Both the position numbers and the translations under genes were made by a program. From assembly GCA_034687125.1 (NCBI GenBank), contig JAQGBZ010000040.1, positions 124,001-188,000 of the forward strand: DNA of 64,000 nt. The letters are read 5' to 3'. Below are positions 1,301 to 28,533 of the stretch, piece by piece (the stretch's first letter is position 1; each line of letters starts with the position of its first letter). The notes beneath the pieces were generated by a model. That model searched no databases and was not told the DNA's origin. It was given only the letters and a program-made list of their open reading frames with translations. Source of the stretch: Neelides folsomi. Its lineage: Eukaryota; Arthropoda; Collembola; Neelipleona; Neelidae.

Positions 1301-1544
1301 CGATAAAATCGACAACAACGATTGGGTCCTCGCTATATGTCTTGGGTTTGTTCTTGGCAAAGTCAGGTTCATTAAGAAGGAAGGCGGCGACATAAGGCGT
1401 GAAAATCGCAGTGTACATCACAAGTAGGAGAATCAGCCAGTCCCAGACCGCCTTGAACGGAGAGTAGTGCAGAATGGTCCATTTATGAATGCGAGGAGAT
1501 TGGAGACGATATTCGGGAAGAACGTCAGCTCCCAACGACAAGAC
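1301..1544 (-). CDS. sei: ERG channel exon: pre-S1 linker, S1 and start of S2
   Basis: This 244-base exon has 81 codons plus one base. It starts with [15 protein letters not shown], the block directly before S1 in all ERG channels. It continues through [19 protein letters not shown]1 ([19 protein letters not shown]), the S1-S2 loop and the start of S2 (IVVVDFI). The acceptor (GAGCAG, AG at 1546-1545) is phase 0 and equals the start of KCNH2 exon 6 (c.1129). The donor is G|GTAATAC at 1300. This acceptor is the joining point for every upstream alternative exon in the gene (25156-25224, 21999-22961, about 8591-8920, 2136-2828). It therefore separates the constant channel core from the variable N terminus. 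Confidence 0.96.
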
Positions 1545-2135
1545 CTGCTCGGCACAACACCAATCATGAGTGAAATTTAATTAGGAAAAGGGCTATGGCA
1601 TAATGGCCAATTTCTTGTATGTACAGAGAATCCTTCAGAGTCTTTTCAATTCGGTCAAAGGCGAATCAATTAAGGAGAAGTGAGTCAGACTTAAGGGTAT
1701 TAAATGCAACTATGTAACATACATAGTCTATAAGTAGGAGTACAGTATTACAACCATACTGTATATACATAACACCATATTATATATTTGTACATATACA
1801 GATACATACAGTAGTATTTGTAGTAATAAGTATAGACGAACTTTAAGGTCCGTTAAATAAAATTAAGTTTTACTTCTACAAGTCTCCATACACTTTCAAA
1901 CTTTCAATTCTACAGATAACGTACAGATGTATGGTACATAGGAATTTAGGAATAGAAAGTCGAATTGAGTTTATTTACACTATATAGGTATAGGTATCGT
2001 AAAGTGTAATCGACTTGTAGTAGTTTTAAATTTTTAAATGGAAATAAATAAATAATAAGGTGGCCGTGGACGAGCAGCGACAATTTGTAATTTGAATGTC
2101 GTTAGTCTTGTGATGGAACTATCAAGACCTTGTAC
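1545..2135 (-). other. ERG intron between the 2.1 kb N-terminal exon and S1 exon (591 bp)
   Basis: AT-rich and full of TATAC/TACAT simple sequence. No coding sequence is seen. It is the shortest route from any alternative N-terminal exon to the S1 exon. Confidence 0.75.
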
Positions 2136-2828
2136 CTGAACTGCTGCGGACTTGGCCGTGACCATGTCAGCTTCCGCATCCTTTTCCTCAATCCATTTTT
2201 TCCTATGGGATTTCCTCTCACTCACGCTGCTCCCACAGTTGCTACTCGCTTCACTTCTCAACGGCCCTATCTCGTCAAACTCCCTTCTAGCCGAAGACGC
2301 TGGGAGCGGCCAAGAGAACTTTCCCTTAAAATGGCTCAAACTACTCCTTTTCCGGCCACCTTTGGGAACCACGCTACTCGCCTCGATTGGCGGAGGGGGA
2401 TGGTCGACAAGGGAAGTCTTCAGAGCTTTGAGTATAGGCACTTCCTCGTTGTTCACAACAACAGTGGTGACCGGCTGGGGCGGATCGGCGGCCGGGAAGT
2501 TAATCAACGCCTTGCCGCCGTCGTAGTGAACCGATGGCGTTGTCGCAGGTGTCATGGCGAGAATCGTCGAGGGAGTGGAAGGACTTATCAACTGCGGCGT
2601 CCAACGAGATTTATTGGTGCCGGCGGAGCTGGAGAGCCTCCGTGAGGTTCTCGGATGATTCTCCAAACTGGGCCTCCGTTGGGAGACGATCGGCGTGAGG
2701 AGAGACCCAACCTCCCCCTCTTCCCCCTCCGTCCCACGGTCAAAATCCTCATCGACAGTCCAAAGGGAGGGGATATTCATCTGAGAGGAGCATCTTCTTT
2801 CGAAGAACATGGCAGCCGAATTGTACAT
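2136..2828 (-). CDS. sei: Alternative N-terminal exon of ERG (231 aa, PAS-less)
   Basis: A minus-strand open frame runs from ATG at 2828-2826 (AAGTATG, purine at -3) for 231 codons. It ends at donor CAG|GTACAAG (2136/2135), phase 0, ready to join the S1 exon 591 bases away. The encoded segment is low-complexity and polar: a Glu/Gly run (TEGEEGEVG), Ser/Thr/Pro stretches (SPSTPSTILAMTPATTP, PPPPIEAS) and several basic phospho-consensus sites (RRPS, RRLS, RKRSS). The last residues before the junction are AAVQ, the same final Gln as EKVAQ and NDDGQ of the other exons. The frame is open back to 2843 with TGA upstream. A possible internal acceptor (CTCCTCTCAG before ATGAATATC, near 2782) would make it a cassette exon instead. 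I do not recognise the sequence in other channels. GC and codon use are well above the flanking DNA, which supports real coding. Confidence 0.72.
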
Positions 2829-5800
2829 ACTTCCCACTTTCAAACCATTTCAAAAGGCTCGTATAAGGGTACTTATTCTTCCTTTGATTTCAATTTTACA
2901 AGTCTCTAAGACATCTAAGAGATCTAATATGTATTGCTTATTCCTCTTGACTTCCTACCTGCTACCTTAACCCTATACATATTATGTATGGTGTGTATGT
3001 AATATGGACCTTTAGATCTCGATGAATGCCCCACTCAAACAAATTGAAATGTGGGTCTTTTTCAAGACATTATATTTCCTGTATTTCGTTATATGGAAAA
3101 TTATTTTATTACATCAGTATGAAATTATTGCAGTGTTGTAAAAGGATCTTTTTTATTATTTTTTGGGAAAGGGAAAAGCTCAACAAGAAATTCAAATAAG
3201 GAATGACATCGAATTCTTGACTAAATCAAATGAAGTAAACGAGTCGAACTAAATTCCTTGCACGCTTCTCAATTGAACCTTGTAAGATTCCTCAGATAAA
3301 AAAGTATTCCAAAGTTAAGTGTTTCCTACATGAATACTAAAGCCAAACAGCGTGCAAAATTTTTAAACCAATTTTCATATACATAATATGTTTTATCCAA
3401 AATGGAAAAAAGCAGTTTAATCTAATGTTGTTTTATTTGAGTTTATAAACTGTTTTACTTGCATAGGAAATAAATTGTTTCACTTACATTGGGGAAAAAT
3501 AGGCGGAATTAATTTGAAATGTTTTTTTCATTGCATTTTAGTATTTCATATTAATTCCAGGAATTCTGTTTAAAACTGTTCTTTGTATGTATTTATGTAT
3601 TTAGATAAGAAAGTTGTATAAGCGCTAGCAATTTTTATTACAAACCCAAGGACGAGACAAAGTTGAAACTAATTCTGTTTCTCATAAAAAATCCAAACAA
3701 AAGAAATGGAAGAAATCTATAAGAGTGTGAGATTAAGAAAGTGGCATGAATATTTAATCAATAAGAGACGATGTATTTGGCTATTCCGCTTTCCATTCTT
3801 TCTCCCAGGATAAGATAATTAAAAAAATGTTCCTTTTTGCAATATCCCCATTTTCCCTATACAGATTTCAATTAATATATATATATGTCTACAAATACAT
3901 GTATGTATCTACATAATTGTGTATGAGTAAATATTTTACATACCTTTTCCTAGTAAATTTTAATAGCTCAGGATTGGGAATTTTATAAGAGTAAGTGAGA
4001 TAAGAAATCAAAGTGTTAACTGTGTAGCAATGTCAATCATCATCCAAACCCCCACAAAATGATTTAATTGCTATACTGCTTTTATGTCTGAAAATCAGAA
4101 TGATCGACCTACGGTTCGCAGAAAGATTAGCCAAAATTAAAGCTATTATCCACGGATAGATCTTTTAAGAGATGGGCCATTTAGATTGACTATGTACGAC
4201 TTTGTATGAGTTATATACTCTCGGAAAATAATTATTGACCCCGCCTCTTCGATTATCCACATGCAAAATGAGTCATTAAGTAATAAACTAGAAGGAAACA
4301 GAAACAATCAAAGCTTGACTTCACTATGTAAAATCCTATCCTATTATTTGTATTCCTATGTATGTGAAAATTGTGAAAATCGTTCCAAACCACAGGGTTG
4401 GGAAATTGTGGTAGAAACCTGCGAATCTCAAATTAATAACTCTTGGAACTTATGGGTAGAAATAGAAATATTTTACAAGTGAAGAGTCCCTTGCCAAAAT
4501 TCCCCTAATTTATGTACCTGGCTCGTTATTGGTAACCCATATATGAATTAAATGTCGGGAGACGAGAAGACATAAATACCAAAATACGAACATAAATAAC
4601 GGCGTGAATGTTCAACACTAAAGTTCTCAAGTCAGGTACTCCATTTTAACCACGCTTTCACTCGTGTGTGTGCTTATTTCACTAATTACAATAGTTGAAT
4701 CCGAGGGCGGGTAGAAGCACGAAAAGATTTCAATTTTTCCAATTCCAATTTCCCTCTTTTCCCCATTTCCCTCCCTTAGGGAAATGAGAGAGAAGAAAAG
4801 GGGCGCGAGGATTAATAATAATAAAGTAGGTGTTAAATATTTCTTCGCATGCCCATCCTCGGAAATGAACCGTCTTGAATCTCTTGAAAGGAGCACAAGC
4901 ACAAATATAGGAAAAAACTCAGAACTGACTTTCTCTCCTCGATCACTCGACCTCCTGAGTCGGAATGAATCTTTTCTGGCATGGGAATCCCGTTTTGAGT
5001 ATAACTATTGAGGAACGGGAGGAACGAGAGGAACTGGAGAGAGGGAGAGATGATGATGAGAGGCTGTGATTCCCAGGAATGGTCGCGAGACTCGAAGGTA
5101 AAGAGAGTTCCTCTCCGAACCACACCTGAGTGATGCGGGAACGGATTAAGCAGACTGCGGCCGAATCCCACAGCCACCCCGAAACTCACCCACACAAGTC
5201 AGGTTGAGTCGGGAGGGAATTCAGGCCCAGCCATCCTACAATTCCGGATTGACGACGATGAGCTCTTTCAGCCTGCGGTCAGGATTTTTTACTTATCTCA
5301 CGACTCTGACCCCACCCAGGTGGATAATAACATTGTAGATTGGAAAACCCACGAAAGCTTGATTAGGCACACGCACCCTCCGCTCGCCCAATCCGGGTGG
5401 TTCCAGCTCTGCATTGGGCCACTTCCCTTATCCAAATGAGGATCAAACGAGAAAGTCAGAGAAAGAAGTATTGGCTAATAAAAGATATCTCAGAGTCCTC
5501 ATGGTCCAAGTCAAGAATAAAGGAAGTGTCAACCTTCCACTTTTAAGACCCTCACCAATCCATAAACAATCCTCACCTTCAAGGGCTTCAAGACTTCAAT
5601 CTTTAATAATCCTCTTTTATGTTTTATTCACTCTTTTCCTCACTTTCCTCATCTGCAGTGGACAAAGTCAGGAAAGCTTTCCCATTCTTAAGAAAACCTT
5701 CCAATAAACTTGGTCAGAGATCTTGACAAGGTAAGTGGCTCTGGTTAAAAGTGAATCAGAATAAAAAAGAACAAAGGAGTTTTTCATCCTCCAGATCCTC

Positions 5801-8575
5801 CTTCATTTTGAATAAGAGGGGAGAATGAGGCGAGACGAAGAACATTACTCTTTGCCAACAATAAAATCTGTATGTATAAAATCTGTATACTTAGGTCGGT
5901 ATACTTACGGTAAGTGAGGAAAAAGTAAGTAAGGAAAAAGAGGCGACGAAAAGATGCTGATCTTATCAATTCTCTTTCCTCATTCAACCATCAATAACTG
6001 CACATCAATGTAAATCTGCCCATCGGAGAGGATTTTGAAAAACGGACAAAGATCTTTCTCTGTCGTTACACCTTGTAAATCCTATAAAAAGAGGATGATA
6101 AAGTGAAGAGGTCAAATTTGTCATTGAGAGTTCTTTTGTGTGAAATCTGCAAGTCTAAACACATCTTGTTTCGAAAGGCTATTAGGGAAAGGAGAAAAGA
6201 ACATTTTTTATTGAAGGAGTTTTTTATCCAAATGAATGTACTAACAATAAGTATATGGTACTGTACTGTGCTGTATATGGTACAAGTGTATAAAGTATCT
6301 GTATAAAAAAGAGAAGGAGAAACACTTTAATAATTAACATATTGCTTTAAAGGTGAAAGTAAGATAAATTAAAGTTGTTACATATGTATATTTAAAACTA
6401 TTACTTCCTACATTATTTATTTGATATCAGTACAAAGAGAGGGAGATTGACAAATTACTGAACCAATGCTCATTTGATACTCCGAATCAGTTCAAACCCA
6501 CTCTATTAAAGCTTGAGAACTTTATGGTTATTGTCATTTCATTGAGAAACCATTAGGTTTGGAGTCCGAGTCTCCTAATGGTCCTTCTTCCTTCCTTTAA
6601 ACCTCATTCAGATGGATCCTTAGAATGGATGAACCCTTTGAGACAGAAAGATCGATGTGCATCGATCAAGTAGCCCGCTCTATTCTCATGTCCAGTTACG
6701 ACCTACCATACAAGCTAATAAAATTCTTCAATAAGTAGTCAGGAATGTTCCATGGGAGAAAATACACAGAGTTGAGCCCTTGATACAATTCCTCGGATTG
6801 GTCATGAATCCTTGGTGAGACACGATTCTTTTCCTTGCCCCATCCCAAAGCACTAAACATCTATCTCGACATGCCAAAAACCCTCGCCAAATTCTGTCTT
6901 CGTGCCACTAAAGAGGGAAGACAAGCTTACAAAGAGCAATTCGTTTTACACACTAAAACTATTTCTCACCTTCTCGTTTAATTAAATTGAAAATTAAACT
7001 CCTACTTCTGCCAAATTGAAATTAAACACATTTTTTAAACGACGGTTCTCAATTAAATATTGGCCATTTAAAATTTTGTATTTGAAGTTTGTAATTTATC
7101 ATAATATGTTATTTACACAATAAATACTATGTATAATTGTATTTACACACTTTCATATATAATAATAATATCATTGCTAATCTCAATATCGCACCCGGAT
7201 TAGTAATTAGGGCTTGTGGGAGCGGAACTTGCATTTAATTGACTTAATTATGTATTTGCAACAAACAATACCGGTAATTAAAATAATATATAATGCTAAA
7301 TCGATTAGATTTAAATTACTCATATTTACGATGCGATATGAGATTTATTTCATTTATTTTAATATAACTTTTAGCGATTTCACATCCTTGCATTTTGCAT
7401 CACATTGCATTGCATAAAGAATTAATGTTCATTCATTTTACTCAATTTCTAACTATGTATAAGCATTTTATAGTTAGTTCTTTTTGCTCGATTTTAAATT
7501 TTCTTTGGATAAGTTTGCTTATCGTTAGATTAGCTAAAAAGTAAGGTGGGATATATCAGTAATAAAGTCAATGCAAATAATGCTCAGGGAGTTTTGAAAA
7601 GATGAAAACTAATAATTTGACCCTTGGCATTTCGTTTATTATTCTTTTCCTAGCAAAACTCGGTTCGTCAATTTAATGTAATCACAAGCCTTTTGCTAAT
7701 GGGCAAAACTTTCTGACTCATCCATCCCCTTCATTCTTTGATCAATTTCCTATTCCCGTTTCATTTTTTTTAACCTATTAATTTTCATCTTCTCCACACA
7801 ATCCTACAAATCGTGAGAGTACAAACTCTACCCTATATCCTATACGTAAGTAAAATATGTATGGTATATTGTGAATAGTAAATACAAATACAGATACAAT
7901 ATACCTATATTTACCTTATAAATACTGTATAAGTATTACGTATACCAATATTATGTATATTTTTAGTTTATAAGATTTTAAATGTATTTTTTCTGAATAG
8001 TATTGACAGAATACATAAGTATATTATATTTATAAGTACGTGATACTCCATATATTTATTATATGTAAAAATATGTTTTATTATTTATATACAAAAGCTT
8101 ACGGATGATATTCTTCCCCGTATAAAGTTAAACATCCATGGAAGAATGTATCTCATCATCAATTCACATGAAGTCTTGTAATTTGGCGATCACGAAATGT
8201 CCTCATTAATAATCCCTCTCTTGAAGTCTCAGTTTCTCAAATACTCTAAAAGTGAAAGTCGTAATAGCTATGTAGCTCTTATAAATAAAATAAATATAAC
8301 ACCCCGTATCAGTAATTGCTCTTTTAAAAACCTTATAAATATTATTGTTGTAGAATACCGTATTGTGTACTCACAGAAATGTCTTCTAAACAAAGTATTG
8401 TGAAAATTGTGATATAACGTCATAAGGGACAAAGGTTGAATAATGGATCCAAAAAAGGTCTAGACATTATTTTACGAATTTACTATAATTCGCTCAGCGA
8501 ATAATAGGACTTTCCTCATTTGCCCTAATGTGCTTATGGGAACTTAACGAGCGTGAATAATGAAAAGAAAAGAAC
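2829..8575. other. Intronic DNA between alternative N-terminal exons
   Basis: Mostly AT-rich sequence with no gene I can support. A GC-richer patch at about 4900-5450 stands out. It lies upstream, in transcript sense, of the 2136-2828 exon, so it may be its promoter and leader exon. That is inference only. The small open frames in this patch do not read as conserved protein. Confidence 0.5.
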
Positions 8576-8590
8576 CTCTTTCCCAATGAC

Positions 8591-8920
8591 CTTCTTAATT
8601 CCTGGTGGGGCTCCATTCACTTCATTCTCAATCTTCAATGACTCGGCGTCAAAACTGATGGTGACTCCGCTCCATTTAAATTTTTCTCGTCTCGTTTCCG
8701 ACCTCGTCGTTCCATTTGTCCCCGAGTCGGTCGAGAGTGGTTGTTGTTCTCTGCTCTTCCTTGCTAGTAAAGGAGTAGCCGCAAGGCTCATTTGGTAACT
8801 TCCCTTTGATTGCTGTGAGTCTGAGGATGGGCCTCTTAACGGCGTTGCTCCTCGACCCAGACCACCACAACTCTTCTGTCGTTGTAACACCTTGGAGCAT
8901 TTGACTGATACCGATGCCAT
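8591..8920 (-). CDS. sei: Candidate third alternative N-terminal exon of ERG (about 110 aa)
   Basis: The minus-strand frame opens at ATG 8920-8918 (MASVSVKCSKVLQ) and reads SCGGLGRGATPLRGPSSDS, MSLAATPLLARKSREQ, RSETRREKFKWSGVTISFD and NGAPPGIKK. GC content is well above the surroundings and the composition matches the other two N-terminal exons (Ser, Pro, basic). Two possible donors keep phase 0 with the S1 exon: AAGAAG|GTCATT at 8591/8590 (110 codons) and AAAGAG|GTTCTT at 8576/8575 (115 codons). The second would end in GKE before VLSLG. Neither ends in Gln and both donors are weak, so the exon boundaries and its membership of this transcript are uncertain. No other gene nearby would use it. 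Confidence 0.5.
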
Positions 8921-11430
8921 TGTATGATCGTTGCTGATGCAATTGATGCAATCGATGCAACTGACTCCTGTCACGATTAATCTCACTTCTACCAAATTGA
9001 CTCCGTAAATGGAAGAGATCCGAGTCAAATGGACGTCCGGAGTGTATTTGTCACCCGTGGAAAAAAATAGTAGACAAAAGTGGGGGAAGATTGACGACGA
9101 TGGGTCAAGCTGAACTGGACAGCGGATGTGATTTGGTAAATGTCTTAATGGAGAGGATTTATCACTTTTTTAATGAGAACCGACCAACCAATTTGAAGAC
9201 AATTTCTCACTTTCTCCTCAATGTTCGACAAAGTGCCATTTGTCATTTGACAAATCCGACACTCCAGCTCTGTGGGTTATTTAACACACGGCAATAAATA
9301 AATTACAGATAAATTCTGTATATCCACAAGTTCCAACTACGTGGAGAAAATATATACTTCACACTTCAGATCTTATCTGGCTAATGGGTCGAATAAGTTC
9401 AGTAATGTATTTTGGAAATTGTAAAATCAGAGCGGAAAATGTCCAATTTTCCCTCAACCCACAAGTCGCAATGTCAGACAATGTACTGGTTTTGATGTGG
9501 AAAAGAGAACTAAAGGTTTGCTCGTTGAAAACCGTTCTTTTATCTATTTGCTTTTGGACAGGAGGAAGAAGAAAGGAGAAATGCATTGGGCGAAGGATGG
9601 AGAAATGAGTCAAAATTTGGTTTTTCCTTCATTCTTACACACTCGCCCGGTAGACTTCATAGACATGTCTCTTTGAGTTTATTTGTCAACTCTCGGCCTT
9701 TGTATTAACCATAAGAGAAGTCCGCTGAAACCTGGGGAGGAATCCGCTATATGTTGACATACAGTATATGACATATCAATATATAAAGTCTTATATGGTA
9801 TTGGCCGTATTGGTATGTATGGGCGGAATTCCCTCGATGGTTTACATGACTCTCAACACGTTTTCCCGAGCACCAATATGCGTGACTGAAACGATGAAAC
9901 AGACGAACAGCTGGAGTTGTGAAGAAACAAACACGACACCTTCCTTTCTCTTTTCGATCATCTTCCCATTAAAGAAGAGGAAATTTCTCAAAGTCTGAAC
10001 ATTTTTATAGAGATTCAATTTTCACAAATTACCAATTCATTGCCAAAATTTAATAGGAGATATAATGGGAGATTTAATAGTAGATCAACCCATACTATTT
10101 AAATTGAGCAATTTAAATGAATCTTCAAATGACAAATGTCAATTCAAGTTTTGTTCCCAATCTCACGAGAGGATCTCAAGAAATTAAAGTCTTTTGGGAA
10201 CTTATTCCTTCCACTTTCTTTGCACATGTTTTTAATATATTATTCACGTGGAGGGGAGTCAACATTATTAAATAGAACGGATCTATGGTGTACACCAAGG
10301 GTGCATGCTTAATTCGACTAATGGGCTATGAATGTTTAATTAAAGTCCAGAGCAAACGCCAGTCCTCGCCAACTCACTCGAGTGTTATCATCATCAAACA
10401 ACTCAACACTTTCACAGTGAATCAGAGGAAAATGTAATTAACACTCATTTCACATTGGCACGGACACAAGTATAGGAATTAGGAGACAAAAATTCTTTAA
10501 TTGCAACTTTATTCGCACACCAAACCTTCTTTTTTTATTATTGAACAAATTGGGTTTCACTGCAGACTAAGCATGGAGAATTCCTCGAGAGACTTTTCAA
10601 TCAATTTAAAGGAGCCGACCATTAGAAAATTAACTTCAGTTTCTCACAGTTTTCTTCTAAGGAATATTTAATTACTTTGCTTCACTCTCTCCGCTTTTAC
10701 TCGTTTTACCAACGAGGTGAATTTAAGAAATGGGGGAGAAATTCTTACTGAGCCAAAAGGGGCCATACATAATTAAATAATGATTCACTGGAACTTATTT
10801 CATTGTTATCTATCTTTATTGTGCTCGAGTAATCTCCCACTCGTAGAAGACTTGCCCCCAGGAAAAGAATTCTCAAGTGAGAAAATCTCAGATTTCTTAT
10901 TAATGGACCAGAAAAGTGCTTGGAGCTAAAGTTTAGCTTTTGAATGCTCCTGGCTAAATCCTATATCTATTTAATATCGCACAGATATAAGTAGTAAGAG
11001 TATTAAATGAAAGACCCGGGCATTGGAGCCAAGATGGTTAATATTAATAAACCTAATCTGGTTTAACTTGAGTCTTTGTAAGAGTGGTCATGTGGTGTCT
11101 AATGGGACCCTAATGAGGTGGGATGAGCAAGGAGGGTGTTGGGGAGAATTCTCCAAACGTGGCTGCCCTCAACCGTTGAGGAGATGAGAACTGAGCCAAC
11201 TCTGCCTTGGTCCATCAATACTCTGACTGCGGCAGAACAGGAAATCGAGCGCGAAGGCTCCTTTAAGAAGAGAGTCGGCTCCTTTCACCACTTCCACACT
11301 TTCCCTCCCTCCCCCATTTGCATGACAAACGTCTGTGTGTGTGTTGTGTGTTTTCGAACCTCTTTCTCTAAATGTGGACTCAAAACCGACCGCTATTTTA
11401 TAGATCGTACAATACACCTATCAAACTCTA

Positions 11431-11512
11431 ACCATATTCTTGCCATACTAGCCATACTGCCATACTTGCCATTTCCATACTCGCCATACTTGTCATACTC
11501 TTACGATACTCC
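11431..11512. repeat. CCATACT-type tandem repeat
   Basis: About seven imperfect copies of a 9-10 base unit (T/C)TTGCCATACT follow in tandem, with single-base drift (GCCATACTA, GCCATACTG, CGCCATACT, TGTCATACT). It is an intronic minisatellite of unknown role. Confidence 0.75.
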
Positions 11513-14500
11513 TTCCTTTTATGGTATTAAACGAGCAAGAGCTAGGCGCGAGTTTGATTGTATTTATTTAGAATCACTTTATAGTGTAGCTTCATTATGC
11601 TTACCCTTATAAATTCTATATGCTTACAAATGAGATATATCATGAGTTCATGAGTAAATACCAACTTACATAATATAAGGTATGTCAATATGTAAGTATA
11701 TCAATTTATCAATCAGAATATGGTAAGGTAAATGTTAGTCCTTAGGGTACAATATAAATAAAAATTTGTGTGAAATAAGAAATGCAAATGAAATGAGAAA
11801 AGTAAATACAGTATATCTACCTACTTCAGTAACGACGCAAAACATCTACATCTGTATCTTTTATACATTATGTATAGTATGCTAGCGATAAATAGTAGGA
11901 ATACATATATAGAGTACTTAGGTATGGATTAAATACATGTTTGAATTTGCTAACATTTGCATGATACACATTCACATATGGTATATGTACTTAATGGACG
12001 TGTGTAATTACAAGAATAATTTGACATTTTATGTACTGTTCATCCTTTTAGAATAATAATGCCATGATAGTTATCATATACATACTTTAAAAGAAACATG
12101 GTGGTATAATACTATAAACGTATAAGGTATATTCAGGAGGATGTGTTATGCGAATATTCGATCTATGCTGCGATTTTTTTCTTTTGAATGTGAGATAATA
12201 ATGGAGAGAGGTACTTGTAGAAAAAACTGGAGTCATAAGATATATTCATTTGTATGTTAGAATGCTTTTGAAGCATCAATATATTTACGTCTAGAGCTAT
12301 AATGAAGGTATTCTATTCTGAAGTATAAAACCCAATTTGGGTCTTTACCTTTCTCCAAAGAGCAGGAGCGCTATTGGAGCTATTGTATTCTAATGGAGGC
12401 TCATATTCAACCATTATAAATGGTACATTGGAAATATTAGCATTGCATCCGCTTTTTGTTTAGCTTGGCTCAAAGTTCTACTTTTTACTCATTCACTTAC
12501 CGGAGCTCCATTGCGGAGGAAGAAGAATGGAAAGTTGATAATAATACTTCTCCTTCCCCCCAATCATCCCCATCGAACCCTCTAAATCCCATTAATGCGC
12601 TCAAATTCACATGCTCCCGTATTTAGCAAAGGAATGTCTTGGGAATGCGGGGAATCTTTGGGAGCTTTTAGGGAGACCGAAACATACTTTCTCTCTTCAC
12701 CTTATCAAAAAGTATTTTGGTTCCCTTTAGGAAAAGTTTCCAATGACCTTTAGTTCAATCTAAAATAAAAGTCGAGTGGAGGGGTACTAAACGATATTGA
12801 TGACGGGGGATTTGGTTATCCTCTCCCAGACGTCTCCTACATACAAAGGGTGGGATTGGGTCCAAAAGAGCTTCATGCAATAATGGGGGTGAAGAGGAAT
12901 TGTGCTCCCGTCTATTGACTCTTTATTGACAAATTGGATCGGGAAAGTTGAATGCGAATCAGGCTACGTAAGCGGATTCTAAGAAAAATAACCGAATTTC
13001 TAAGACCTTCTTTTTTTAAAAAAAATGGTGGAAAAAAAGTAAAGTAGTTGAGTCTATCGAGGAAGAGATAAATCATTGAAGACATTGAAGAGTGCGAGTA
13101 CCTTTCCATGAATTAATTTAAATCATGAAGGAGGAGAAAATTCACGTCCTAAAAGCATTTTTATACTCAATTCAATATTCTTACTTTTTCTATCCCATCC
13201 CATATATTTACTATATAGTAGAGTACAGTACCATTATCCATACAGTATAATGAATATACTGATATATGAGTATATGAAGAAAGAGAACCAGTTTTTCAGT
13301 TGAAGAGAGTTGAAGAGGAAATGAAAGCTTATTGGACAGTGTCAGACAGCTCCAGAATTCCTGATTTGGCCTCAGACGTGAAAAGACGAAAGCGGGGAAT
13401 GACAATTGAAAAGCCATGTAATGAAAACAGGAAAATTTCTACAGATACCGAATATATATTTTATATATCTGAATACCAGAAAGGGGGTTGGAAATGGTTG
13501 GATAAATAAAGAGGCGAAAAAGAAGGATCTACATGGAATTGTCTATGAACATTAATCAAACTCTGCGGGGTCTGGATGAGTTGAATGTTAAAAGAAGTGA
13601 TAGAACTTTTGGTGACGCAGGAGGAGGTAGACGTAGACAAGAGATTACAACGACCGATAGATTACAAATCCTTGATTTAACTTTAATCGCCTCATCAATT
13701 TTTCATCAGAAAAGAGAGGAAAATTCACGGTTGGGCTTAAGATCCACTTTATCTGCCAAATATTTTTATCATTTTCTCATCCTTTTTCTTCAAGCATTCT
13801 GATCCTTTTACTAATACCATACATATTTCATACATGTATAATCCATACATGCATATTTCATACGTAAACCATCCTTTGGATAAAATCCTCCCCTAAGTTG
13901 GGAATCTTTATAAACAAATAAATTTGAGGGTTTTGGAGCACAATTTCGGCTCGCCGCCAACACGAGAACAAATGCGAGATCATTTGAATAATCAGATTAA
14001 CCTAAGCAATAAATAGTAAATAGACCCACCACCCGCTAATTCCTAATTCCGCCTTCACTGCTCAGTTCACTCAATGGGCCCTCATCTAATCCCCTGATCC
14101 AGACCATCTTGCCCTAACGATTCCCCTATTACGCTTAAATGTCTATACTTTAAACCCAAATCATTTGCTTTTATATTTATTTCATACCACTTTACTTTAT
14201 ACTTTAAAACTCATTGTCTCAAATCGTTATACATGTCATGTATCTAATTCATATTTATGATAGAAGTACTATATAAATATTACAAGACTGTCGACTGTAA
14301 GAATACAAGACTGTAAGAATACCATATATCGGTATTGCAGTATTACAGAATTACATATATCTTACAGTTCTTTATAAAAAATTCAAAGCACATTGTTAAA
14401 CATGGAGAATAATGATAATTTGTTCAGCTTAATTTCAACATAATCATGATTAATATAATGTTTCAACATTCAAAAAGCTATATAATTATTCTTATACAAC

Positions 14501-16999
14501 AACCGCGACATATTGTATTCGGTTTCAGATTATAATTAGAAAAACATGAAAATCCAAATTATTCCATGTTAAATCAAGTATGTAATACGGTACAATGTAA
14601 ATCTCAAATTACATAAAATTATTTTTGCACTAATAGAAAATTCCATTATTAAGCACATTCTACTATAAGTGTAGTAAAGTATTTATTTATGTACTATAGT
14701 TAAGTATGTATTTTTTATATCTTGAGTTCCAGCCGTTCGATATATTCGAATAATGTTAAAAGAAGAATTTAATCAAGTGTGATCCCATCAGGGAATTAAA
14801 CTTTGGTCATAAAATATCGAATTACTTCTACTAAATATGCTAATTTATGGTTAGTGATAATCAGTGAGAGGATTGGATAATTAATTGTATTGGGTCTTTA
14901 AAGACACGTCTGTTCATAAATAATTAACTAGGAGAAATAATTAACTAGGAGAAAGTTTGAGAAAATTGGAAGTTCTTTTCTGTCCATTCCAAATAATTCG
15001 AACAAGAGAATTCCTCTTGAGGTTGAAGAGACCATCCAAGGGCGAGCCAAGACGATACAAAATTAAGAAATGGGTCTGCCAAATGGCCCACATATTTCTC
15101 CTTTATGGACATGGAATAGAAAGAGCGAAAAAGGAATTTGTGGCCATTCTTTTGGCACCGACCACGCAACCTTTCGGCCCACCTAAGAAGTCCGCTCCAA
15201 ACAAACCCCGATTTTACTCGATGAAACTTGTGAACTTATTCTTTCCCTGGTTTCAGGGAAAGGAGTTCACTAGGGATTTAGGAATGAAGGAAGGAGGAAA
15301 ACATTTTCTTTTTCTGCATTCATTCCGCCATGGATTCTGTAAGATGGCTAGGAAGGAATTCCTGAATCGCTTCCATAAGAAAACCAAATCTTCTTCCTAA
15401 CATTAACATCTGTCCTAAGGGCCAGCTTTTCATTTTAATTTCTTAGCAAACTGTTTTATACGTTGCATATAAGTAAGTATAGTACTTATTACTTTTATAT
15501 ATAGTAATAATGTATTCACTAGAAGATGTTAACAAAAGTTTAATAAAATAAGCTCATTTTCTCAAAGCTGCTTTCTCTTTAATTATCTTATATTTTAACT
15601 CTACGAATATTAAGCCTTTCTGCCTCATTCATGTAGATTAAATTAGTTTAAGTCATAAATGAGAGTTTTAATGTTTCAACATTCACTAATTCTTGCAACA
15701 CCTTATTAATATTTTCAATCAATATTTCTCATAATACTTATTATTTATTATTGAACTTTTTGTAAATATTGCAACTAAAATTAATTTTCATAATATTTCA
15801 CATAACATTAAAGCTATGTAAATATTTATATATATTACGTATTATGTACTTTACTTATATGGTGTTATACTAATGTACAGTATGTGTACAAATTAAATAT
15901 GGTTCTTAATTTGATATGATTATTTAAAAATTAAAAATGTTTAATTGGGATTCATTTTTAGAGCTTGTGCTTAATTTAATGTGAATGGTAAAATTATTCC
16001 AAAAGGTCTGTCATGTGACGAGCCAAATCATTAATTCCCATCTTTCTCAAGTTAACTTTTCAAGAGAACTAGTAAAATTAATTAAAGAAGATGGATTTGG
16101 GAAATTATATGAATTATTCATGTCATGAGATTCACTGTCCCACACCTGTACAGTATATCATCGGGAGTGAGTTCTCGAGGTAAATTCCATGTATTAAATA
16201 TGTAAGCTTAGTTTGGATAAATGAGCAAAGTAGGAAGGGAAGTTGAGAGGATGACTGACATTTCCATTTGGTTCTTATCTTCACTGGAGGAGTCTCCTCC
16301 TTATTTCCTTTACTTGTTGACTCTCCGATGTCTTATTTGCCAAAAAACACTGAAATAGAAATAGACACCTGTCTTGGGCTCCTTCTCCAGCATATTTTTA
16401 TTCCGTTCTCCCTCGCGGGTAATTACCGGAAAATTTCCTCACGAGAATTTAATCTTATCTCATTTTCTCCAGAGGAAACTCATTTCCAACCCGCATGTTC
16501 ATTATGAGATAAAATCCCTTAAATTTCCAAGATCAACATAAGAATGAATTGCTCGCGTCTTTCTTACCGTTTCAACTTTCTCGCTTGCAATGGACTTTGG
16601 AGGTCTAAATTCTTCAGCTTCGATGATCACGTCCGGATTTACCTTCCAAACCGCGAAGGAATCTCTCATATGTCGGAGAGAGTTCCTTAAAGGCATAGCC
16701 CCTGGTGACATTTTGGATTTGAATTCAAGGATTGTAAATCCTCAGGAAGTCCATTCAATTTCCCATAGGGTTTCCCAAACAAAGGAAATCTTCTCTGAGC
16801 TCCATTAGCGAGTATTTAAAAAGTTCCCCACTTTCATTTTATTTATTTATGAACAGTTCCAGGGCAAGGATTAAGAAGGCAGCGATGTAATATATAAAGT
16901 TCCTTCGTCCCAATTGGCTGAGTAAATAGAATAAAAAAGAATTTGTTCAGCCTTCAGGGAACGAGTATCAAATCCACTATGGGGGAAATTACGTTCAAT

Positions 17000-17650
17000 G
17001 CAGTTGAGGTGGAGCGGATTGTTGAAAAATGTATTAGGAGTGTAGAAGGAATATATAGAATGGATTGTTTAGATCCACAGAATGAACTTTTTCATCGCTC
17101 CGGCTTGTTCAACTTCTGAGTTCCCCAGAATGAAGATGAACTTATTAAGGGAAGTACCGGTGGGTTTATGAAGAAATGACTCACAGTTACCGTCCAAACT
17201 CCTCTGTTCCCTTTCCGCTTAGATATTTCATGAGGAAGAGATAAAAGGAGTTTTCGGAGCTCCGCTCCTCGTGAAACTAAGCCGAGAGTCTTTGTTCTTG
17301 GAAGAAGGATCCGGGTGGCTAACGAGCAGCGACCCACTCGTGGAACGGGAGGTTCTTCAGCTCCGACTCCCCTGAATCACTCACGGGATGGGAATAGGCA
17401 GAGACGGTGAGAAAACACTCTCCCCAGTCCCAACATCCCAAATGGTCCACCCGTCTCATCTCATCCCAGATCCCATCCTTGGTTGAAAAGAGAGCAGAGC
17501 AAGCAGCAAGTCCTCGCATAAACTCCCTTCTCATCCCATCTCAGTCTCCATACAGATTCGATCCGACCTCGCGCAGCCTCACACCCCCTTAAACCCAATT
17601 GTGCAAAAAGACCGCCGCCACTCACTTCACAAATTGACCTCATGTAAATG
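17000..17650. promoter_or_regulatory. GC-rich patch, candidate internal promoter/leader region
   Basis: This stretch is markedly richer in G+C and CpG than the 10 kb on either side. It has open frames on both strands that do not resemble known proteins. On the minus strand CATCCC|GTGAGTGAT (donor GT at about 17396-17395) is a good splice donor. That would suit a non-coding leader exon splicing to one of the downstream N-terminal exons (8591-8920 or 2136-2828). This is inference from composition and one splice-like motif. Confidence 0.3.
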
Positions 17651-19194
17651 ACAATATTTTCACTTCCACCTCCCTCAAATAGATTAAATTATATTTACAT
17701 ACGAGAAACTCGATAAACATTCAAGATTTACACGCGAGGTCTGTGAATCGACAAAGAGACAAACTGCAGTGCGTAAAAGACAACTTCGTGCTAACGACTT
17801 TTGCGAACCTTAATACTAAAATATTCTCTTTGCCTTCCTTTACAATATTGAAAATGTTCAGTAAAGATTTTTCATTATTTCCTTCCACTCATAGTCAACC
17901 AATAAGTCTTGAATTTTGGAAGTCTAAAAAAAATTTCTGAAATTGTCTGTCTAACATCATTATACATTAATACAAATATTGCTATATTTTTAGCGTTTTA
18001 AAGTATGAATAGATCAGGGCTTTGTAATTGAGTTTTATAAGTTATTCATATCGTTTTATAAGTTCCAAGTCTGCATTGAATGTTCCAACCATTGTCGAAA
18101 TTTCGTATTTGAGGGTAGGAATAAAAAAGGGAAAGTTTTCGGGTTTTCAATCTCTTTTCCCCCGTTTCCAATTTATTCATGCATTCTTCAAGACGTATCC
18201 TTAAATGGAATATAAAAGTAGCAAAGACCGAAATGCAATCTGTAGATTCCCCTTCAATAATAAACATGAACATAATAAAATCATTCCAAGGAACCAAGTT
18301 GACTCGTGATATGGATGGTTTGCTTCATCCTTTCCGGCATCATGCATTTGTCTCTATTTCATATGTATGAGAATTCGCTTCCCTCTGTGACCTTTCCAAC
18401 CTAAAAAGTCTCACAATTGAAAATAGAATGAGTCTGCGTCTATATATTTCTTCTCTATTTTCAAATATGCATGAAATGATATTTCTCAAACTCCCACGTT
18501 AAATATACTATATACTCTTGCCATATACCAATAGTATATAAATAAATATCTGGACACTCATATATAACATATAGTGACCCTTGAATCTATTTTATATAAT
18601 CCGATAAGTATTTTATTGAGAGATATAAAATGGAAAAATTATGCTGTAATTCTCACAATGAACGCTGATGGGAATCCAACGAGTCCCGAAGGCGGCTATT
18701 GAAAAGAATTGACTTATCCTTGTAATTTGTTACCTCGACCGTTTCACGTCGGTTAAGGTAAAGGAAAGATTGATAGGTGAGTCTCATATGTAGAATAGAA
18801 TCAATAATCGTTCCTCGACCATAAAAGTAACATCTCTCTCACAGTTTATTGAGAGCATAAGGATCTCCAAGCTGAAAGGTTCATCAAGCGTTCAGTGAGG
18901 CTGAACTAATGTTAGTTCGAGGGCTTGGTTTGAAAGTGATGATTCAATCATCATTAAACCGTGGGAGATGGAACATTAGGAGGAGTATGAGACTTCCCAG
19001 GTCTCACTCTAAAACCCTAAAATACCCGATTCCTCTCCGTCCATCAATCCCGGCTTGAACCAACTTCACAAGTTTACTTATAACCCTCAAAGACTTCAAA
19101 CACGATGTATATGGTTGAAGTAAACTAGACAAATAACCTTTATCAAAATCCTAGGGACAAAATGTAACTCAACCCAATTGTAACATACAGACTT

Positions 19195-19251
19195 AAATAT
19201 CCCTCAGTAAATATCCCTCAGACTAAAATATCCCTCTAAATATCCCTCATT
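19195..19251. repeat. AAATATCCCTC tandem repeat (4 copies)
   Basis: Four copies of AAATATCCCTC(A) with 2-5 base spacers occur in intronic DNA. It is a short minisatellite. Confidence 0.85.
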
Positions 19252-21998
19252 GTCATATAATATATTTCATAAATTTCATTATATTAAATATAAAGATAAT
19301 TTGAACTAGTTTTACAGCACTGACAGTGACAGACATATGATATGTATTTTTTAGCCATGTAATAACATTATCTTCAAAATATTGTAATTCGCAATTTTAG
19401 GTTTATTTGGATAACTTGCGTTATTTTGTGATATTAGTAGTAGCTATAATTAATAAATGTGTGTCACTGAGATAAAAAGAAATCAAGGAATTAAAGCGAG
19501 ATATTAAAGAAAGGTTTGTTCCGGAAGGACTATAATTCTCCCTTTCCTTCACCTTTCGAACAATAACCATTATTTATGCCTCTTTACCACTCCTTTCCAT
19601 ACATTTTAACTAGGGCGGGTTTCATTATGGAAAAGTAGGCCTTTTCGGGCTTAAGCTTTTCCATTGTCGATTCTCCCATTCATCTTAAGGAAAGAAAGTG
19701 CGAGCGAAATATTACGTTGAGGAAAATGACAAAAAAATTCGCGCCAAGCTATCAATGTGCAAATTCGACCTTGGGTTTCATTCCCTTTTCCTTTAATTAT
19801 TATTTGGAATATGATATTTGAAATATCAGATAGATACTGTGAGATACTGTGTATTAGTGTGTATAGCGTATGTAAATCTATAATATAACAGTCAAGTTTC
19901 TTAAAATGTTCCCTCAACATCCACACCATTACCATAAACATGAAAGGAAACTAATGGATCACGCCAATAATCCATTTGTGAGCTCAAGAAAATGAGGAAT
20001 AAAAACAAAGTTTATCACGGTTCTGCAGTAGGGCGAAATGGCTGGCAGATGAAAGGCCTAACCTTCCTCACGCTCCGCCAAAGAAAAACCAGAGTTGTTT
20101 TTTAATGAAAAAGAGTCTTGAAAATTAGTTTGTCAAGAGACATAGAGCCAAGTAGCTAATAAGAGCTACAACACGAAATCTTTAAAAAATATATATCTTA
20201 AAGTCTTAACTTAAAGGCTTGGAATTAATACCATGCAAAGTATTTCCTTTTTAAATGAGAAAAGACTCTGGGTCATAAATAAGGAAAAATGAATGGCCGT
20301 TATCTGGGACTTTTTGGATTATAAGCTTTTTTAATAGACCCAACACATGTTGTTTTCTTTCACATTTGAAAAGTTCTTTTCGCAATTCTTATCCTTATAT
20401 TCTATTTTCTCCTCATGACAGCTCATTTTAAGACAGACCAATAAATACTTAACTGCCACTTCCAAGTCTTCCAAAAGACAAAATGGAAGTTTGGCAAGTG
20501 AGTTGTATTCATATTTAGAGTTCAGCGAATCCATATAAATACAAACATGCCAACACATTCCAAATGTAATATACATAAATATACTGTACATATCCATATC
20601 TTACATTGGGGAAAAGAAAATAATATGCAGAGCAAATAATATAGCGATTCCTGAGGGGAAGTTTAAAAGTTTTAGAAAGGAGGAGTTCCCATAAATTCAC
20701 ACGTGTCCAAAATCTTATAGCTTTTCTTCAGAATATCCCAAAGCTAAAAAATTCAAAACTTGGAGATTCTTTATAAAAATGCTTTTTTGAATTGATATAC
20801 TCTAAAATACATACAGATAGTTTTCGAATAGGTCTCGAATACAGATAGTTTTTAGTTAAGATTTTACTGCTTTTACCTATCTGCTTTGTAAGGTGCGAAA
20901 CTTACATAAAATAAGGGAACTTTACATAGGAATCTTACATAGGTCTAAAGAGATTTGAAAGTGAAAACAGAAGTTTTAAAACTAATATTACATCGTTTAT
21001 CTCTGTATGTACATTAAGTATGTACGAGATTTAGAAGAAGAAAAAGTTTGGAATTGCGCAAATACCTTCCATGCTGATGAACTGACTATCTCTTTTGTAT
21101 TTCAAACGAGCTTATCCGAAAAACCATTCATTCACGTTACAATAGCCCTGCTGTGAGTAACGTCTTTTTGGCGAGGATTGAGCGGAAGTAAAAGATCCTT
21201 TCATTCTATTCTTATTCCTCTTCCTCCTTTCTCGTCCTCCCCCTTGTTTTACTTCAAATTATAACAAGGAAGAATCAGTTTGGATTAAATCCAATAAAAA
21301 CAACAGAGAAAGTCAGTTTTCTCTGTCTTTCCTTTGTTAGTTAAAACTTTAACTTTAAATTGTTACTTATTTATTTATCTTTTACTTATTTTAATTTTTA
21401 ATATATTTGTGATTGATAGTTGGGCATTTTTTAATTTATTAAAGTGTTTTTAGGACAGATTTTTTAGTATTTAATGTTATAGTTGTATCAATAGCTGTAT
21501 CAATACTGTTGTAAATATGGTATCGGTATATTTAATATTTAAGCGAGTTATTTTCTATTCACTTTGTAAACAATTTTCTTCAAAGTTCAATCACTTAAAG
21601 TGAGACAAAAGAAATTCTTTATAAGGTTAGGAAATTGGATCAATTGAAAAAGTATGTAATACTAAAAGCATATAGTAGAAAACACAAAGTGTGTTTTAAA
21701 GTTATTCACCTACTTTTCTCCTTTACTCTAAATTGCTTTCATTTCCAATTTGCTAACAACACCTTAAAATCCAACGAAAATAGATTTATTTATAAAACGT
21801 GTGTGAGGGAACAATTTTACGTATTAACTCTAAATGTTTTGCGTATCAACTCTAAATGATTTTTATAAATTATACTAACATTAATAACCAATTAGATTAA
21901 TAAATGAATGTATTATGGACACCTTAAATCTTCTAATATAAAAATGATAAAAACTTTAAAATATAAAATTAAAAATTTTTAATAAACGATTTCTATAC

Positions 21999-22961
21999 CT
22001 GCCCATCATCATTTTGTGTCTTGGCAGGAGTTTCGAGAACAAGTTGGTCAATGTCATCAATATTTTCACAAAGAAAGGAATTTCTTGGAGTCAACGATGC
22101 CAATACTTTTTTACTTTCTTCGCTTAAATTCTGAAGCGTCGCAAGAGGAAGATTTGATTCTCGACTACTCGATTTCCTCAATCCTTTACTATGAAGACTA
22201 TTACTTTCGCTCCCCACAGGTCTTGAACTATGCGGAGCAAAAATTTCAAAATCCACACTAACTGGCCGCGGAGGAGAATTTAGGAAATAAAAGGCATTGA
22301 AAGCCTCCTTAGCCAGCGACTTCCTCCTTGACCTTTCAAAGTTCGAAGGACTCAGATGGCGAGCACTTGTTTCCAACACGTTTTGATAACAAACTTCAGG
22401 TTCGGCCGGTATCGGATGATGCTCAATATATTGTCTCTGAATAGGGCTAATGGGGAGTATTTCCTTTAGAATTTTTTTCCCCGGAGAAACAATCACACTT
22501 TCTTCGTCTTCCTCTCTCAGCTCCTCAGTTTGTCTAGTTGGTATTGGAAGCGAGAGGGTTTTCTTGTACTGTCCAAACAAACTATTCTGAATGGCGGCAT
22601 TCCTTGACCTACCTCGTGGACTTGGGATTTTATTCCCAGCCTGTGGCCCACTTGAACCAATTCCCTTCCGCGGTACAAAGGCCGAAAATCGGGGAGAAAG
22701 GTATGAATTGTAGGTCGGTGGCGATATGAGGCTCACACCTTCTGAGCGGGTTGGAAGAGGGCTTAAGCCCTCATCTGCGGAAAAGTAAACGCTTGAAACA
22801 GAGACTTGATCTCCAGATGCTGCAGACCCAATAATGTTCCCTTGCATGTCCCGGAACCCGGGAGATTCTTCCTCAACACACCCACCCAGTTCGCGGATCA
22901 AGCGAGTGGAAAGTGGAACATGGGCGATAAAGTTGTCAGCCTTGTGAAAACCGTCAACACA
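21999..22961 (-). CDS. sei: Alternative N-terminal exon of ERG (283-321 aa, PAS-less)
   Basis: This is the longest open frame in the window. It ends at donor CAG|GTATAG (21999/21998) after NDDGQ, phase 0, so it joins VLSLGADV of the S1 exon in frame. There are two readings of the 5' end. A strong pyrimidine-rich acceptor (ACTTTCTCCCAG) at 22963-22962 gives a 963-base exon of 321 codons starting CVDGFHKADNFIAHVPL; phase 0 makes it a possible cassette after EKVAQ. Or it is a first exon, with the first in-frame ATG at 22847-22845 (MQGNIIGSAASGDQ, 283 codons) and a leader upstream. The residues are polar with many SP motifs (ISPPTYNS, IPSPRGRSR, ISPIQRQ) and basic kinase sites (RRKS, RKSSSRES). 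No PAS or other domain is recognisable. Coding is supported by length, GC and frame; the identity of the sequence is unknown. Confidence 0.8.
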
Positions 22962-23520
22962 CTGGGAGAAAGTTTGAGGGATGGAAATAAGGAGTAATGG
23001 GGGGACATAACAACCGACGGCACATTCGTCCTCACTGCCGTCAAAACTTGAAATGAAAAGAGTTACTACACGTCTTTCGTTTCTCAAGAGCGGAATTGGC
23101 GTATTTTAAATAACGAGTTCGGTTCTCCCTCCCTTGCGTATTGGGCTGGTATGACGGAGTGACCTAGAATTTCCTTAAGTAGCCAACGTGTGACAAAGGA
23201 GAGCTCTCACCACCCAACACACCGCAGAATAAACTAACTACCGACTGAGCTCACACTGCGCCTATGAGAACTTTACCCGGATCCTTCCTTGGAGTAAAAA
23301 AACACCTGTTTATGTATTAAAAGAGGGGGGCTCAGGCGGCGGTTATGACCATAGGCTTTTCCCTCACAGTCCCCCCGCTCTGCGCTCCTGACAGCAGATA
23401 CCAGCCGGTGAAATGAACTTCTTAGACATGCAAACATAGGAACCTTCCAAAGGTGTAATTTGAAGTCGATTTCTGCATCTCCGCGTTCCCTTCATCCGCT
23501 GCGCAAAATAAAAGGATGAG
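22962..23520 (-). promoter_or_regulatory. Candidate internal promoter for the 22 kb ERG exon
   Basis: A GC-rich stretch lies directly upstream, on the minus strand, of the 963-base alternative exon. It carries a TCAGTC motif (23248-23243) matching the arthropod initiator consensus TCA(G/T)T(C/T). I see no TATA box about 30 bases before it. If transcription starts here, short upstream open frames beginning at minus-strand ATGs near 23007 and 22921 would precede the main ATG at 22847. This is inference: composition plus one short motif. Confidence 0.35.
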
Positions 23521-25155
23521 CTTTCTAATTTCCTCGTTCCTTTTACTCAACGCCGTTTCCTTCCCTTATTTCAATCCATTTCGCACCTTACACTGCCCAT
23601 CTTTTTTCATAACTACCATACACCTGTTTTTAATATTCTACTGGCTCTACGTTTTATTATATCAATATCGTTATGATCTCGTTCGGATTATACTGATATG
23701 GTTATATGTATGTGTGTATATCTGTACTTTACATGTTGTATCTTTATACATACACATTACATATTATATCTCTAGTAGTGTAGCATTAACAAAATTTTAA
23801 TTATGTTAATTGCTTTAAAACCTTTGGGAGAAACGTGAACGTTTTATTATCTTGATATTAAATGGATTTTAATCTGGTTCATGGAAGTATTACAAAATAA
23901 GTTAAAGTTAAATGTCATAATTTCCAATAAGTCAAAATTCAGTTTGCAGATCATTAATTTGAATTATATTTTAATCCATTTTATACTTTCTTTTGCCTTC
24001 TTTAGCCTTTGAGCTACAAATGCCATTTCTAATGAGCAATTTCAACTTAACGACTGCCATATTGAAAGAATAAATTCTTTAAATGTTACTTCTCATAAAG
24101 ATCCACATAATTATTTTAGTGCTAATTGCATTTACGATTTTCCATTTAACATGTGTATTTATGTTCATGGCATTATGCCATAACTTAAATCTTTGTTGCT
24201 GCTAAACTCATATTCCATTTGTAATTTAATTATTTAAATTCATCATAATTCGTATTGATTCTGCTGAAATCGGAAGATTTATTCGAAACACTTTGATCAA
24301 TTTTATTTTAATTTTCTTTCGAATACTAACAATTAATTCATCAATATTAAATGATTCAGAATTCAGAGTTGCATCAATTGCTAAACAAAACATATGCAAA
24401 ATGTTCTAAGAGTGAAAATGAAAACTATTGAATAAAAAATAATACTTACAAATACTTTACATTTATAGGGTAGTATTTTTAAGCATAAAGAAATATACAC
24501 ACATTGTAAAAATGTAAACGTAAATTTTAATACAGAATTTATAACTATGTGTTATTCTAGGTACATGTATTCATTTATTGTATGTAAGATATAAACCCCC
24601 TTTTGTTTGATATCCTCATTAAAAATAAATTTATTTTTGCGATGCAAGCCCTTTCCTAAAAACAATGAATAACTCAGCTCCAGAAGATACATGTATTATC
24701 CATACATAAATAAGGATGAAATATGAGGTATACTGTATGATACATATAGAAGTTTATAAGCTTAATGAACTTTGTATATGAGATTACCAGTAGGATATAT
24801 GTAAGTTCATTAAAGCTTGAAACTCTATTACTATTTAGTTAAATTATCCCAACTCACTCTCTTTATTGTGACTCTGAAGTTTTCCCAACTTTCCGACTCA
24901 TTTCTAAAGAGAACAAAGTTGAAGGTGAAGAATGTGGAATTTGAAGTTATTCACATTCCCCATTCGCACTTCTCTTATCAACAAAGCCCCGTTGTACGAG
25001 AACTCTCTCGTTCTCGTATAAAATTCTCGTTCTCGTATAACGTTTAGGTTTAAGTTAGAGCGAGGGCGAAGACCGACGCCGCAGTCCTTTTTTCCATCCA
25101 TGAACTAATTGGAAGGAATTTTGGTATGAAAGAACATAGGCAAAGGATGGCGTAC
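23521..25155. other. ERG intronic DNA
   Basis: AT-rich, no coding sequence seen. Near 25004-25040 a 17-base unit containing CTCGTTCTCGTATAA is directly repeated, a small duplication about 115 bases downstream (minus sense) of the 69-base exon. Confidence 0.6.
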
Positions 25156-25224
25156 CTGAGCCACTTTCTCCCCAACTTTCACTCCTTGCAGAAACTTCCC
25201 AGAACCGTTTTCTTGAATCGACAT
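25156..25224 (-). CDS. sei: ERG 69-base exon before the S1 exon (linker end)
   Basis: Exactly 23 codons lie between acceptor TTTCCAG (AG at 25226-25225) and donor CAG|GTACGC (25156/25155), phase 0 at both ends. It encodes MSIQENGSG followed by KFLQGVKVGEKVAQ. The ending corresponds to HERG APKIKERTHNVTEKVTQ just before VLSLGADV, and the donor matches the end of KCNH2 exon 5. The exon begins with an ATG codon, but this is an internal exon: the upstream linker exon ends in phase 0 and joins it only 265 bases away. Skipping it would keep frame. Confidence 0.88.
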
Positions 25225-25489: not shown

Positions 25490-25665
25490 CTTGTATCGTG
25501 AAACGCCTTCCTGGTGAGTCAAATTACTCAAAGAAGGAGATTTTTTCTCACGGCTTCGGTCTTTGTAATGTTCAACAAGGGAGATTCGATGACGGGCAAG
25601 ATCGGAGTCGGAATTGGAGACATTTGGAAATCCCTTTTTTCCAACACCGCCGTCACACTTCTTGG
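25490..25665 (-). CDS. sei: ERG linker exon with SDSDLARHR motif
   Basis: This exon of 176 bases runs from acceptor TCTAACAG (AG at 25667-25666) to donor AAG|GTCAGA (25490/25489). It enters in phase 1 and leaves in phase 0. It encodes KKCDGGVGKKGFPNVSNSD, SDLARHRISLVEHY and RSREKKSPSLSNLTHQ. NSDSDLARHRISL corresponds to the vertebrate ERG block STSDSDLVRYRTIS in the linker between PAS and S1, which fixes the frame and identity. The rest is polar and diverged. It joins the 69-base exon downstream through a 265-base intron. Confidence 0.87.
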
Positions 25666-28333: not shown

Positions 28334-28533
28334 AATGTGTTGGATTGGGATATGAAATAGAAGTCAGAGGTTGGACCACTTGTGTACAGACTGAGCCAAT
28401 TCTATCGAGCGAAGAGGTCGTCCGAATTTGAGCTACAGATTGGGCCGCGACATTGGATGGAGTCGTTTGAACCGGTGGTGGAACCGATCTCGATTTCGCC
28501 TCACTTGTCTGTCGGATGACAAGCATTTCCAAA
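28334..28533 (-). CDS. sei: ERG linker exon, 5' end uncertain
   Basis: The donor CATT|GTAAGT (28334/28333) is strong and leaves in phase 1, matching the next exon (T+CC gives Ser). The minus-strand frame reads SLEMLVIRQTSEAKSRSV, PPPVQTTPSNVAAQSVAQI, SSLDRIGSVC and SISYPNPTH, which fits the Ser/Pro-rich PAS-S1 linker of ERG channels. The 5' end is unclear. The preceding exon leaves in phase 2, so only AG positions followed by one base then a codon fit: AAAG at 28535-28534 (used here), AAG at 28505-28504, or AAAG at 28607-28606. None has a good pyrimidine tract. Alternatively the frame is open to ATG 28619-28617 (MAWQRIKHVLTASN), so this could also serve as a first exon. Confidence 0.68.

Follow-up and report, generated by a model that had tools for sequence, protein, structure and literature searches.

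The mammalian ERG1 gene (KCNH2) encodes two kinds of channel subunit, the PAS-bearing ERG1a and the PAS-less ERG1b, which co-assemble into heteromers (PMC7515569; this and the following papers are cited from excerpts). The PAS domain sets the slow deactivation of hERG, its deletion speeding deactivation at least fivefold (PMC7515569), and mammals dilute this effect with the PAS-less isoform. The hERG1b N terminus comes from one exon, which has a start site of its own in intron 5 (PMC9113952); the exon lies in the intron before the exon that begins at residue 377, the published divergence point of hERG1a and hERG1b (PMC9428852), and joins it at VLSLGADV (PMC9428852, PMC9113952). Fly seizure and worm unc-103 are ERG channels without a PAS/eag domain, which the fly and worm genes are described as having lost (PMC9989356). 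Here we analysed a window of 64,000 nucleotides (nt) from the springtail Neelides folsomi (contig JAQGBZ010000040.1; C40:124001–188000) that contains the 5′ part of an ERG (Kv11) gene on the minus strand. In the intron that corresponds to the one holding exon 1b, two long open reading frames (ORFs), termed 22.0 and 2.1, behave as coding DNA, and we consider it reasonably probable that they are alternative first exons of the ERG gene that encode PAS-less subunits, analogous to hERG1b.

Exons were located by tblastn with the human hERG1a protein as query, and copy number was assessed in the whole genome (75.1 Mb, 840 contigs). Judged by its sequence matches, the gene is an ERG (Kv11/KCNH) channel gene with an N-terminal PAS/eag domain and a C-terminal CNBHD. 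Exon by exon, hERG1a is matched by PAS exons at 46.7, 43.2 and 33.6 kb and by the S1 exon at 1544; the exons from S2 to the CNBHD are located ≤3.3 kb further downstream of the S1 exon, partly outside the window, and include a pore exon with the GFG selectivity filter (SVGFGNVSPNT) and CNBHD-region exons with 66–84% identity to hERG (last residues, ITFNLRD). With phmmer, the S1 exon matched hERG at E = 5e-33 versus 2e-14 for the best EAG chain, and PAS exon 2 matched the hERG PAS domain at E = 1.5e-23. Genome searches with the PAS region and with the S1 region each returned the ERG gene and a weaker relative (on C17 with 38% identity, and with 42% identity, respectively), and these searches found no second ERG gene. 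An earlier reading of the window from its letters alone (the sequence-only reading) had named the gene, its PAS-bearing front end and the correspondence of the junction to the hERG1a/hERG1b divergence point, all of which the comparison bears out.

Since hERG1a residue 377 is where the S1 exon begins, intron 25155–1545, the 23.6-kb intron upstream of this exon, is the counterpart of the intron that holds exon 1b. It contains all three candidate ORFs:

1301..1544, minus strand: S1 exon, the common 3′ partner, with a phase-0 acceptor (GAGCAG|GTCTTG); its residue 1 corresponds to hERG1a residue 377.
21999..22961, minus strand: candidate 22.0, with its first in-frame ATG at 22847 (283 amino acids), a possible phase-0 acceptor at 22961 and a phase-0 donor (CAG|GTATAG).
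22962..23599, minus strand: GC-rich block adjoining 22.0, without codon periodicity, a possible leader or promoter.
2136..2828, minus strand: candidate alternative first exon 2.1 (231 amino acids), with an ATG at 2828, a phase-0 donor (CAG|GTACAA) and an in-frame TGA at 2852–2850.
8591..8920, minus strand: weak candidate 8.6 (110 amino acids), with an ATG at 8920 and a phase-0 donor (AAG|GTCATT).

The sequence-only reading had proposed that several N-terminal exons converge on the S1 exon. Its stretches 25156–25224, 21999–22961 and 2136–2828 are indeed open on the minus strand, end at CAG|GT donors in phase 0 and can be joined without a stop to the acceptor that precedes VLSLGADV (exon start, 1544), so that the 22.0 and 2.1 fusions to the S1 exon are in frame. 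This acceptor is in the top 0.9% of AGs, the exon itself having been part of the splice-model training set. The fourth stretch is likewise in phase 0, whether taken as 8591–8920 (AAG|GTCATT) or as 8576–8920 (GAG|GTTCTT). The first of these stretches is no separate N terminus: although it starts with ATG, 25156–25224 is the final exon of the canonical linker (EKVAQ, equivalent to EKVTQ in hERG). The extent given to 22.0 holds only in part, as the start at 22961 presumes an acceptor and the first in-frame ATG is at 22847. The 2.1 frame is closed by a stop 21 nt 5′ of its ATG; at its other end, the ORF runs on for 33 codons past the donor (2037–2135).

The three longest ORFs of the window are all on the gene strand and in this one intron: 21996–23105 (370 codons), 2037–2849 (271 codons) and 8537–9169 (211 codons). 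In simulations of locally composition-matched windows, the longest ORF reached or exceeded 370 codons in 0/200, 271 codons in 3/200 and 211 codons in 21/200, and there was a second-longest ORF of 271 codons or a third-longest of 211 codons in 0/200. Codon periodicity was tested as base composition by codon position against an open-frame null (2,000 simulations). Both 22.0 and 2.1 were strongly periodic (p = 0.0005 and 0/2,000 simulations each), and seven hand-picked GC-rich control blocks of the window were not (7/7, p = 0.11–0.88). Over 154 kb, 16 ORFs have 150 codons or more; 22.0 is the longest of them, and both 22.0 and 2.1 belonged to the eight that reached the minimum p of that run (0.002). 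Candidate 8.6 had no periodicity (p = 0.42). The test reaches p < 0.05 in 31 of 39 known conserved spans (8/39 do not), and the known 31-kb linker exon is also without periodicity (p = 0.39, in-frame test); because the test misses some real exons, it does not refute 8.6. GC content has a 3′ edge at 21998, exactly at the 22.0 donor, and a 5′ edge at 2819 (support, 2839–2771) near the 2.1 ATG at 2828. Two of the "two or three" PAS-less N termini initially proposed are therefore long coding-like exons, and the third, 8.6, carries no coding signal; that the two are first exons is the likeliest, putative reading.

As alternative first exons, they would work as follows. A distal start at 46688 would give the PAS-bearing subunit, and two intronic starts, one in or upstream of 22.0 and the other upstream of 2.1, would give mRNAs whose first coding exon is spliced by its phase-0 CAG|GT donor straight to the S1 exon, at the equivalent of hERG residue 377. 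The predicted products lack PAS and have unrelated N termini rich in serine and proline, one of about 283 residues and the other of about 231. If they behaved like hERG1b, their mixing with PAS subunits would make deactivation faster, and separate promoters could tune the current tissue by tissue. The likeness to ERG1b lies in position and phase (placement in the intron before the residue-377 exon and a phase-0 join to that exon, both found for the candidates), the sequence comparison having been made with hERG1a only. The ERG1b-specific part has 36 amino acids, in contrast to 283 and 231 serine/proline-rich residues here, and ERG1b is a single PAS-less exon, whereas the springtail gene has two candidates with putative promoters and transcripts. 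Subunits of both kinds may co-assemble in the springtail, as ERG1a and ERG1b from one mammalian gene do (PMC7515569). Unlike the fly and worm genes (PMC9989356), this gene retains PAS and would make both kinds, its predicted PAS-less products resembling seizure and unc-103 in domain content.

Several observations weigh against this reading. The candidate donors are adequate, not distinctive: in a splice model made of a 50:50 mix of trained and generic frequencies (the latter set from general knowledge; a purely trained version overfitted), the donor of 22.0 scored 5.42 (top 7.2% of GTs) and that of 2.1 scored 6.49 (top 4.1% of GTs). As controls, we took the 22 plus-strand ORFs of this intron that span 80 codons or more: a donor equal or superior to the 22.0 donor was present in 7/22 when any phase was allowed and in 4/22 in phase 0. 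On the gene strand, 6/15 such ORFs, the three candidates included, had one in phase 0, and phase-0 donors alone are not beyond chance. A stronger, phase-1 donor lies inside the 22.0 ORF (GAG|GTAGGT at 22612; score, 9.23), and the first 94 codons of 22.0 are without periodicity (p = 0.38); 22612 is nevertheless unlikely as the sole exon end, given the strong periodicity of the 205 codons that follow (p = 0.0005). Periodicity is also common to antisense ORFs (for example, 2106–2642 on the plus strand) and therefore does not by itself name the strand. Codon-usage and phased-dinucleotide models, for which 39 conserved spans of kinases and ion channels served as the training set (joined in some runs by conserved ERG exons), do not single out the candidate frames (best p = 0.03 for 2.1, 0.12 for 22.0 and 0.84 for 8.6); since these models likewise miss the linker exons of this gene, we relied on the model-free periodicity. 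The GC-rich block of 2.1 passes the donor by 77 nt (3′ edge, 2059). Out-of-frame ATGs stand upstream of the starts of 22.0 (23025, 23008 and 22921) and 2.1 (2848), and the initiator-like elements upstream of the candidates are just isolated hexamers, such as TCAGTC at 23248. Separately, a strong phase-1 acceptor at 22774 (8.48) and the phase-1 donor at 22612 bound 162 nt (22613–22774) that may form a symmetric sub-exon.

A less probable explanation is that 22.0 and/or 2.1 are in-frame cassette exons between EKVAQ (25156) and S1, which would lengthen the N-linker and keep the PAS domain. The 25156 donor and the acceptors at 22961 (5.67, top 5.9% of AGs) and 2780 (4.74, top 8.8% of AGs) are all in phase 0. 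Both of these acceptors outscore the canonical 25.2 acceptor (3.91), which in the case of 2780 tells against 2.1 as a first exon; a further phase-0 acceptor near the 2.1 start, at 2747, scores 4.21. The 38 codons from 22961 to the first ATG are coding-like (G, 0.42 at position 1; p = 0.07) compared with the stretch above 22961 (p = 0.47; the two parts of block 22962–23599 gave p = 0.47 and 0.49). However, there is no clear GC change near 22961, the GC-rich block extending to a change point at 23599, and therefore an intron ending at 22961 is not suggested. The GC edge of 2.1 fits the ATG at 2828 equally well as 2780, and the case already published for this junction is a first exon.

Still more doubtful is an origin of the two ORFs in other coding or once-coding DNA, such as a nested gene or a decaying insert, that is not spliced to ERG. 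The similarity searches agree with such an origin: 22.0, 2.1 and 8.6 had no Pfam match up to E = 5 and, for the two searched against PDB sequences, 22.0 had no match and 2.1 only chance-level matches (best E = 0.11). The ordinary donors agree with it too, and the splicing to ERG is itself a prediction. It is opposed by the agreement of gene strand, phase 0 and position and by the intactness of the ORFs. Moreover, each candidate has a single genomic match and, at that sensitivity, is therefore not a dispersed repeat. A scan of viral contigs with 22.0 and the S1 exon (not 2.1) returned no relatives. Chance open frames within GC-rich intron patches would suit 8.6, given its lack of periodicity and the 21/200 simulations that reached its ORF length, but are very improbable for 22.0 and 2.1, whose lengths were reached in 0/200 and 3/200 simulations and whose periodicity the seven GC-rich controls do not share.

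All three candidates are serine-rich, and 22.0 and 2.1 are also proline-rich. Comparisons of the new N termini with the hERG1a linker and with each other (nine pairs, two ways) found no significant similarity, the lowest values being those of 22.0 versus the gene's own linker (p about 0.01–0.02) and of 2.1 versus 8.6 (local p about 0.03). Basophilic kinase motifs number five in 2.1, where 0.7 would be expected (p about 0.001); as the outcome of one in 12 such tests, this is suggestive only. By the charge–hydropathy rule, 8.6 and the linker of the gene count as disordered, and 22.0 and 2.1 fall just within the folded range, so that disorder of these two is not claimed.

The PAS-bearing isoform would be assembled from the following exons:

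46613..46688, minus strand: PAS exon 1, MPIRKGHVAPQH..., with donor A|GTAAGT; tblastn match to hERG.
42965..43189, minus strand: PAS exon 2, with donor ACG|GTACAC; its join to exon 3 reads KDGSRFF and is stop-free.
33468..33617, minus strand: PAS exon 3, tblastn match to hERG; acceptor score, 8.51.
31018..31405, minus strand: PAS-isoform linker exon, with DRAKQTVRQSL resembling hERG GRAKTFRLKL by eye; phase 2 out.
28957..29053, minus strand: predicted PAS-isoform linker exon, phase 2 in and 0 out; acceptor 8.05, donor 8.25.
28334..28508, minus strand: PAS-isoform linker exon, phase 0 in and 1 out; acceptor 8.73; chain open.
25490..25797, minus strand: PAS-isoform linker exon, phase 1 in and 0 out, with NSDSDLARHR resembling hERG NSTSDSDLVRYR.
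25156..25224, minus strand: last PAS-isoform linker exon, MSIQENGSGKFLQGVKVGEKVAQ; phase 0 in and out.

PAS exons 1–3 are intact and their joined frame is open, as is the chain from the 31-kb exon through the linker exons to the S1 exon. The predicted exon 28957–29053 was picked as the better of two in-phase candidates in a thresholded scan of 31.0–28.56 kb; a plus-strand ORF of 135 codons (28936–29343) lies antisense to it. The strong donor of PAS exon 3 (GAT|GTAAGT at 33467–33473) leaves a T, which with the acceptor at 31405 forms TGA, and the alternative acceptor of the 31-kb exon at 31387 scores poorly. The join of PAS exon 3 to the 31-kb exon would need a weak upstream donor or a small extra exon, for example 32586–32533.

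Because the PAS exons are intact in this gene, PAS loss is not arthropod-wide, and an arthropod ERG gene with PAS exons and candidate PAS-less front ends matters because the fly ERG has lost PAS. We suggest, tentatively, that this is a pancrustacean ERG gene with an enlarged ERG1a/1b switch, in which an N terminus with PAS and two or more without it meet at the intron used by vertebrates, and a living intermediate for PAS loss in flies: the distal start could have been dropped while intronic starts kept the channel running. If so, finding the switch in an arthropod, at the vertebrate intron but with N termini that are long and unrelated, would suggest that it is ancient or was repeatedly invented, and how flies lost PAS would become testable. 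Loss of the eag domain from fly and worm ERG was reportedly first described by Martinson et al. in 2014. The sequence-only reading also named a nematode precedent, unc-103, which may likewise use alternative first exons. Among the titles and abstract beginnings covered, which leave out most subscription papers, no arthropod ERG gene of this kind is described.

Elsewhere in the genome, contig C742 (15,157 bp) carries COX1 and looks like a whole mitochondrial genome. Its tRNA-Leu(UUR) lies in the gap that separates COX1 from COX2, which removes the ground for a mite origin that this gap had suggested, and its recognised genes follow what we take to be the pancrustacean ground-plan order. The arthropod assignment of the sequence-only reading is thus borne out and is narrowed to Pancrustacea. 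On this contig, tRNA-Asn was not found, and no ATP8, ND4L or ND5 was detected at the length cut-off used or across the contig ends. Outside the window on C40, the plus strand contains a strongly periodic ORF of 315 codons (C40:225528–226472) that by eye resembles a sugar/organic-ion transporter.

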